Shown: piece by piece, positions 20,655 to 58,346 of the stretch
Position numbering within the stretch: the stretch's first letter is position 1
How the letters are laid out: each line of letters begins with the position of its first letter
From: Planctomycetia bacterium
Lineage (GTDB): Bacteria > Planctomycetota > Planctomycetia > Pirellulales > PNKZ01
Length of the DNA: 64,000 nucleotides
Reading direction: 5' to 3'
Assembly (NCBI GenBank): GCA_021413845.1
Contig: JAIOPP010000074.1
Span: 1-64,000 of the forward strand
The notes under the pieces: generated by a model
The model's input: only the letters and a program-made list of their open reading frames with translations
What the model was told of the DNA's origin: nothing
Database searches by the model: none
Made by a program: the position numbers and the translations under genes

Positions 20655-21659
20655 ATGGCCGCTACGATTTTTTACGACAAAGACGCCGATCTCGCCGCGC
20701 TGAAGAACAAGACCATCGCCATCATCGGCTACGGTTCGCAAGGTCATGCCCAGGCCCAAAACCTGCGCGATTCCGGCCTGAACGTCATCATCGGCCAACG
20801 TCCGGGAAGCCCGAACTACGATCTCGCGGTGAGCCACGGCTTCAAGCCGGTTTCGGCCGCCGAAGCGACGAAGGCCGCCGACGTCGTCAACATCTTGCTC
20901 CCCGATGAAGTGCAAGGAGACGTGTATCGCAACGACATCAAGCCGAACCTGAAAAAGGGCGCGATCTTGATGTGTTCGCACGGCTTCAACATCCACTTCG
21001 GCCAAGTCGAGCCGCCGGCCGGGCACGACGCCTTGCTCGTCGCTCCGAAGGGCCCCGGCCACTTGGTGCGCAGCGAGTTTGAAGCCGGCGGCGGTGTGCC
21101 GTGCCTCATCGCTTTGAGCGCCGGCGCGAGTGAAGAAACGCGCCGCATCGGCTTGGCCTACGCCAAGGGACTCGGCGGCACGCGCGGCGGCGTGATCGAA
21201 ACCACGTTCGCCGAAGAGACCGAAACCGATTTGTTCGGCGAGCAGGTCGTGCTTTGCGGCGGCGTCAGCGCGCTGGTGAAGGCGGGCTACGAGACGCTCG
21301 TCGAAGCCGGCTACCAACCGGAAATGGCCTACTTCGAGTGCATGCACGAATTGAAGCTGATCGTCGACTTGTTCTACCAAGGCGGCTTGAACTACATGCG
21401 TTACAGCATCTCGAACACGGCCGAATACGGCGACTACACGCGCGGCCCGCGGATCGTCACGGAAGAGACCAAGAAGGAAATGAAGAAGATCCTGCACGAG
21501 ATCCAAAGCGGCCAATTCGCTCGGGATTGGCTCTTGGAGAACAAGGCCAACGCCCCGGCGTTCAAAGCCACGCGCCGCCGCGAGCGCAACCACCCGATCG
21601 AAGTCGTCGGCAAGCAACTGCGCCGCCTGATGAGCTGGATCAAGGCGAAGGAAGTTTAA
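20655..21659 (+). CDS. ilvC: Ketol-acid reductoisomerase IlvC
   Basis: 334 residues, class I short form. It isomerises and reduces acetolactate / acetohydroxybutyrate in valine, leucine and isoleucine synthesis. Rossmann motif [52 protein letters not shown]; catalytic [15 protein letters not shown] and the C-terminal knot with [12 protein letters not shown] and [13 protein letters not shown]. The cofactor loop reads [10 protein letters not shown], lacking the classic Arg/Ser pattern of NADPH-specific enzymes, so cofactor preference cannot be assumed. A strong terminator lies at 21750-21787. Confidence 0.97.
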
Positions 21660-57833: not shown

Positions 57834-57956
57834 TCAATCGTGCTTTGCGTCGCGTCTGTCTTGGCGCTTCTCGAGCTTGCCTCGTTTTTGGGTCGAGAGG
57901 CGTTTAGCCTTCTGTTCTTCGATCTTCTTCGCCGACATCTTATTGGGATTCGCGAT
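57834..57956 (-). CDS. Tiny basic protein B, 40 residues, apparent AUC start
   Basis: Minus-strand frame from ATC (57956) to TGA (57834). AAGGAG (57963-57968) lies six bases before ATC, an ideal spacing. An ATG occurs at codon 7 (57938), 24 bases after the AAGGAG, too far for normal use. The protein is Lys/Arg/Gln-rich, starting (M)ANPNKMSAKKIEEQKAKR and ending RDAKHD. Aligned without gaps to the neighbouring protein A, 17 of 40 residues are identical, and both are exactly 40 residues. Function is unknown; charge and size suggest RNA or ribosome binding. Confidence 0.65.
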   Translation of the reverse strand: MANPNKMSAKKIEEQKAKRLSTQKRGKLEKRQDRRDAKHD

Positions 57957-57975
57957 ATATCGCTCCTTAGAAAAT

Positions 57976-58020
57976 TTACGGCAGCTGTGCTTATGGCGAC
58001 TGTACTTATGGTGACTGTGC
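57976..58020 (-). repeat. Three tandem 15-base units at the 3' end of the tiny gene A
   Basis: Units at 58006-58020, 57991-58005 and 57976-57990 (minus-strand form GCACAGTCACCATAA, GTACAGTCGCCATAA, GCACAGCTGCCGTAA). The first holds the last four codons and stop of gene A; the next two repeat the same codons with in-frame TAA. Confidence 0.85.
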
Positions 58021-58128
58021 GGCTTTTAGTTCTTGTCGCTTCACCCGTTTCAATCGTTTGTCGTCCGCTTTGCGCTTCTGTTCCTGCTCGCGGATCTTCT
58101 TCGCTACGGTATTCTGTTGCTTTGCGAT
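58006..58128 (-). CDS. Tiny basic protein A, 40 residues, apparent AUC start
   Basis: Minus-strand frame from ATC (58128) to TAA (58006). AAGGAG (58135-58140) lies six bases before ATC. Between the preceding in-frame TAG (58162-58164) and this ATC there is no ATG, GTG or TTG, so the reading frame has no canonical start unless translation begins deep inside it (TTG at codon 26). The protein reads (M)AKQQNTVAKKIREQEQKRK and ends LKAAQSP, strongly basic. Gapless alignment with protein B (57834-57956) gives 17 identities in 40, with the same AAGGAG, spacer length, AUC and GCN second codon. The upstream -10 TAGAAT at 58159-58164 gives a short leader. Confidence 0.65.
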   Translation of the reverse strand: MAKQQNTVAKKIREQEQKRKADDKRLKRVKRQELKAAQSP

Positions 58129-58158
58129 AACGCGCTCCTTAAAAAAATGCGGCCCGTC

Positions 58159-58187
58159 ATTCTAGCAGTACGCCGAAAAACCGACAG
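58159..58187 (-). promoter_or_regulatory. Possible extended -10 promoter of the tiny gene pair
   Basis: Minus strand TGC-TAGAAT (extended -10, hexamer at 58159-58164) with a weak -35 CTGTCG 17 bases upstream. The same GCTAGAATGA context occurs before infA. Confidence 0.4.
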
Positions 58188-58346
58188 GCGTCATCTCATC
58201 CGACGCCAAGAGGCAAACGCATTCCGTGCTATAGTTAAGCGACAGGGTGTTTTCCGCTGCCGGCACGCGGAATGCTGAATCTTTCGGCATCCGATTGCCG
58301 GAAGCGGGCGGATTTCGAGAGAGCCGTGTGCGAGGGGTCGTGAGCG

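Follow-up and report, generated by a model that had tools for sequence, protein, structure and literature searches.

Only a very small number of bacterial genes are known to have a conserved non-canonical start codon. IF3 disfavours and destabilises initiation on codons that form weak third-base pairs (PMC10158994), and it represses infC, which starts with AUU, and sigR, which starts with GTC (PMC5472188). Conserved AUU and AUA starts in S. aureus, which are accompanied by a strong Shine-Dalgarno sequence, give expression of about 10% of that obtained with AUG (PMC13009471). The E. coli proteins YmcF and YnfQ are small cold-shock proteins with AUU starts that are linked to csp genes. No paper on non-canonical starts in planctomycetes was found in the literature searched, nor was anything useful found there on the cold response of Rhodopirellula.

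The stretch of DNA analyzed here, referred to as the window, consists of 64,000 nucleotides from a bacterium of the Planctomycetia, and carries on its minus strand two short adjacent genes, A and B, in which a strong Shine-Dalgarno sequence likewise precedes a codon that is not a canonical start:

58006..58128, minus strand: protein A gene, with ATC start, 40 codons and TAA stop; a member of the planctomycete 'AKNQNTFAKRQREMEKKRKAEEKR' family
58135..58140, minus strand: Shine-Dalgarno sequence of A, AAGGAG, six bases 5' of the ATC
57834..57956, minus strand: protein B gene, with ATC start, 40 codons and TGA stop; a divergent paralogue of A
57963..57968, minus strand: Shine-Dalgarno sequence of B, AAGGAG, six bases 5' of the ATC, with the same motif and spacing in both B orthologues

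The tandem A and B frames and their protein family

A preliminary description of the locus had claimed tandem 40-residue frames with the layout AAGGAG-N6-ATC-GCN and 17/40 identity, and this held in full: each frame consists of AAGGAG, six bases, ATC, GCA or GCG, 40 sense codons in all and TAA or TGA, and the ungapped identity of 17 out of 40 compares with a maximum of 14 in 100,000 shuffles of B. Also upheld was the claim that no ATG, GTG or TTG lies between the upstream in-frame stop and the ATC of A, and the same is true of B, which has none in frame 5' of its ATC. The first in-frame canonical start of B is the ATG at codon 7, where the two orthologues have CTG and AAG. Three copies of the pattern AAGGAG-N6-ATCGC are present in the 64 kb window, compared to 0.03 expected in shuffles; the third occurrence, at 20914, lies inside ilvC and out of frame, and was rejected as a chance match.

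Protein A is predicted by AlphaFold to form one long helix (pLDDT 90, single-sequence input), and the calculated pI values are 10.8 for A and 10.5 for B. On the reading favoured here, A and B are genuine genes that encode small proteins of basic, helical character. In the window the pair is flanked by genes for UbiD and BrkB, and no sigma-70 promoter match was found. Two further features of the locus were observed. Three imperfect 15-nt direct repeats at 57975-58019 on the minus strand (CACAGTCACCATAAG, TACAGTCGCCATAAG and CACAGCTGCCGTAAA) cover the final codons of A, its stop codon and the gap between the genes, and a terminator-like hairpin with a T-run at 58187-58207 on the same strand, about 60 nt 5' of A, may act as an attenuator or mark where another transcript ends.

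The family of A is an unnamed planctomycete family with the consensus 'xAKNQNTFAKRQREMEKKRKAEEKR'. A single-sequence search with protein A returned both true relatives and chance matches, and profiles were therefore used. The first profile, built from A, the three B proteins and the six first relatives, identified 70 places in 64 of the 296 genomes of the order, and a wider profile identified members in 66 of the 241 genomes of family f15 and, in a sample of the phylum, in 11 genomes of f21, which belongs to the same class and another order, together with a few from other classes. A profile restricted to canonical-start relatives, without any ATC member, still retrieves A (E=1.3e-11). Neither independent profile retrieves B, which is found only when its own orthologues are included; a three-protein B profile matches A with an hhalign probability of 93% (P 3e-7). 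B is thus tied to the family through A and through its own orthologues, as a divergent paralogue. The family has no significant match in Pfam, NCBIfam or PHROGs (curated cut-off or E<0.001), and no relatives were found among PDB sequences or on plasmids.

The only other genomes in which B was found are G003 (80%) and G006 (85%). Both orthologues retain the AAGGAG, the six-base spacing and the ATC, and the genes flanking B differ among its three genomic locations. The differing codons are synonymous in 15/21 and 13/21 cases, and since most of the codon differences are synonymous, the B frame must be under protein-level selection. In G006 a TGA immediately follows the AAGGAG, so a start near the Shine-Dalgarno sequence can be only the GTC or the ATC beyond it.

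It might be argued that the frames are not translated, and that their conservation is that of an RNA or DNA element, given that they are two short frames without expression data. This alternative is all but ruled out by the predominance of synonymous changes, by the absence of any RNA family in an Rfam search, and by leader regions that fold no better than shuffles.

Start codons across the family and the onset of coding selection

The first codon was aligned at 139 family loci, and is ATC at 60, ATT at 4, ATG at 59, GTG at 8, TTG at 7 and AAG at 1, with no ATA or CTG among them. In three loci the ATC lies two codons 5' of the aligned position and was assigned by eye from the flanking sequence, and ATG starts lying one or two codons 5' (in f24, f30, f37 and f88) were also assigned by eye. 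The 64 ATC/ATT loci, which satisfy the criterion that a non-canonical codon should occupy the homologous start position, come from 27 genera of two orders (2 in f1, 18 in f15 and 7 in f21); the ATT starts include those of three g73 genomes whose sisters have ATC. Of the ATC/ATT genes, 56/64 have a GGAG in the 16 nt upstream, as against 26/59 of the ATG relatives. On the family tree the start class changes about 5 times, compared to a mean of 46 after shuffling, and although the tree is poorly resolved the start class is clearly inherited on it.

The point at which protein-level selection begins was located by computing pN/pS over 22 disjoint pairs of ATC/ATT genes. The value is 0.07 for codons 2-14, 0.20 for codons 15-33, and 0.90 in the 14 in-frame triplets just upstream. 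Because pN/pS is so much lower downstream of the ATC than upstream of it, protein-level selection must switch on at the ATC, and this step argues strongly against an upstream start, as well as against an internal Met start as the source of the main product.

The rival reading to be considered here is that the true start lies elsewhere, either at an upstream canonical codon or at an internal ATG (such as codon 7 in B or, in many relatives, a Met near codon 15), and that the ATC is an ordinary Ile codon. In its favour, some in-frame ATG, GTG or TTG is present upstream in 30/64 of the ATC/ATT loci, and many relatives have the internal Met at about codon 15. However, selection sets in abruptly at the ATC and is at its strongest over codons 2-14, the upstream open frame contains no canonical start anywhere in 34/64 of the ATC/ATT genes, the Shine-Dalgarno spacing fits the ATC, the ATG, GTG and TTG codons of relatives occupy this same column, and neither the upstream nor the internal starts are conserved. 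This rival is accordingly very unlikely. The pN/pS values and the 34 genes without an upstream alternative together satisfy a second criterion, namely that coding selection should run from the ATC with no canonical start serving in its place. Initiation at AUC is very likely, but it is inferred from sequence alone, without ribosome profiling, proteomics or reporter data. What the analysis does establish is the reality of the genes, the position of their start, their conservation and their context.

The preliminary description had proposed a count of start codons in relatives, and had predicted that ATC would be conserved together with the strong Shine-Dalgarno sequence; this is what was observed over the 27 genera. 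Neither of the outcomes which it named as refuting was seen, since ATG orthologues use the same position rather than a different one, and conservation at the codon level, which is strong downstream from the ATC, is lacking upstream of it. AUC is nevertheless not indispensable, because many family members elsewhere use ATG, as does one f15 gene (in G319) that lies in the helicase/csp position described below.

Gene neighbourhood and the start of infC

The ATC/ATT members differ from the canonical-start members in their surroundings. A DEAD-box helicase gene lies directly upstream of 38/64 ATC/ATT members compared to 2/74 canonical-start members (Fisher 3e-14; 4e-7 at genus level), and a gene for a cold-shock-domain (CspA-like) protein lies downstream of 40/64 compared to 3/74 (Fisher 2e-14; 1e-7 at genus level). 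One or both of these neighbours, whose identities were checked against Pfam, are present at 51/64 ATC/ATT loci; neither the upstream helicase nor the downstream cold-shock-domain gene is present at the window copies. An RRM protein gene precedes 23/74 of the canonical-start relatives, and much of the family therefore tracks RNA-chaperone genes. It was observed separately that this RRM RNA-binding protein gene, and not the helicase, often stands before canonical-start members in f7 and in f15 (g32), for example at L056 and L061.

One readable layout is that of L157, on the minus strand, where the helicase gene (3003-1657) is followed by the small gene and then by the cold-shock-domain gene (1321-1115). 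The helicase start is TTG in 24/26 readable cases and the cold-shock-domain gene almost always starts with ATG, so the ATC is specific to the middle gene. As a side observation, the order helicase, small protein, csp with starts graded as TTG, ATC and ATG recurs over many genera (L157 1115-3003 and similar loci).

The starts of infC in the same bacteria were read by eye from aligned N-termini. The codon is ATC in each of the seven f1 genomes, for the window's own genome in both of its copies, and also in many other genomes of f2, f3, f7, f15 and f21 (same class), while g73, g71 and their relatives have GTG. Because infC itself begins with ATC, AUC initiation is expected to work in these bacteria. 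The presence of two infC (IF3) copies in the window's genome (G000), at C84:71749-71955 and C119:21275-21481, both apparently with ATC, was noted in passing. A simple co-occurrence of an ATC infC with an ATC small gene across genomes was considered and failed within f15, where in several genomes the small gene has ATC but infC has GTG, and several others combine an ATC infC with an ATG or GTG small gene.

Start-codon stringency and comparison with known systems

A third criterion, that the start codon should belong to the class against which IF3 discriminates, is satisfied by ATC and ATT, given the published specificity of IF3 (PMC10158994). By analogy with the IF3 data for infC and sigR and with the S. 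aureus measurements, an AUC gene should be low-dose and sensitive to the ratio of IF3 to 30S subunits. The reading that is favoured here, and which is likely overall, is that A and B are AUC-started, IF3-sensitive low-dose genes, with the IF3 dependence being inferred as the best mechanism by analogy with infC and sigR. Translation of A and B would start at AUC with initiator fMet-tRNA, guided by the strong AAGGAG; the AUC would be an inherited and selected feature of the family, whose AUC members typically lie between a DEAD-box helicase gene and a cspA-like gene; and the third-base mismatch between codon and anticodon would allow IF3 to destabilise these initiation complexes. The small protein would then be made at low dose, with output rising, as in the case of infC, once IF3 falls short relative to 30S subunits, and its dose would be uncoupled from those of the helicase (TTG) and the Csp (ATG) of the same operon, together with which, as RNA chaperones, it would probably act on RNA or ribosomes. 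Co-transcription, IF3 dependence, the direction of regulation, binding to RNA or ribosomes and a role in the cold are all inferred. The earlier suggestion of initiation-factor-linked regulation is supported by the ATC start of infC and by the helicase and cold-shock neighbours, with IF3 control of these genes still an inference, and the suggestion of a small RNA-binding protein likewise remains inferential as regards RNA binding.

A possible but less likely alternative is that AUC initiation, although real, does no more than hold expression at a constant low level and does not respond to IF3 in a regulated way. A strong Shine-Dalgarno sequence combined with a weak start would yield a stable low dose, and canonical-start relatives also use the weak codons GTG and TTG. 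Against this, GTG or TTG would lower the dose too, yet ATC/ATT has been kept with few switches, and every ATC start is in principle IF3-sensitive.

A second alternative is that AUC is cold-permissive, in that low temperature or cold-adapted ribosomes relatively favour initiation on a mismatch, and the cold would thereby induce the small protein along with its operon. The helicase/csp context of the ATC members is in its favour, as is the example of the AUU-start cold-shock proteins YmcF and YnfQ, whose start codons were not confirmed in the literature searched. However, IF3 per ribosome increases about 3-fold in E. coli cold shock (PMC6511846), and a rise of this kind would oppose the effect; moreover the window copies are without the helicase/csp context. 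In the absence of temperature data this alternative is considered unlikely. If the E. coli result holds here, AUC initiation would fall and not rise in the cold, but the direction of the response remains uncertain.

A bolder reading, which is less likely than not, is that of a phylum-specific operon module, originating before the split of two planctomycete orders, in which graded start codons would set the doses of a helicase (TTG), of a small basic protein (AUC/AUU) and of CspA (ATG), and in which the small protein would sense initiation stringency, or act as its effector, under cold or ribosome stress. The retention of AUC over 27 genera, for the most part next to RNA-helicase and cold-shock genes, suggests that the dose of these small proteins depends on the stringency with which the ribosome selects start codons. 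Gene finders restricted to ATG, GTG and TTG would miss or truncate this family, in which nature has provided replicate pairings of AUC with AUG homologues, and infC can serve as an internal comparison, for the study of stringency control outside infC.

The closest described systems share some of these features. The gene infC (AUU, AUC or AUA start) has a conserved non-canonical start of the same class as A and B, apparently ATC in both copies of the window's genome, but it encodes IF3, to which the small protein bears no relation, and so closes a feedback loop. Streptomyces sigR is, like the small gene, a non-IF3 gene in which an IF3-discriminated start sets the dose relative to an operon partner (PMC5472188), an effect that is only inferred for the 40-residue, ATC-started A and B, while sigR encodes a sigma factor, starts with GTC and has been tested experimentally. 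The S. aureus genes cvfC1 (AUU) and ccpN (AUA) likewise combine a conserved non-canonical start with a strong Shine-Dalgarno sequence, and cvfC1 is also small (PMC13009471); they belong to other protein families and are supported by ribosome profiling and reporter evidence, and conservation within staphylococci is reported for cvfC1, while for ccpN it is reported for S. aureus compared with B. subtilis. YmcF and YnfQ come from a different phylum and are a lead only, with no sequence comparison made. Set beside these systems, the family is a new addition to the short list of genes whose start codon is non-canonical, distinguished by an unusually deep conservation and by its link to RNA-chaperone genes.
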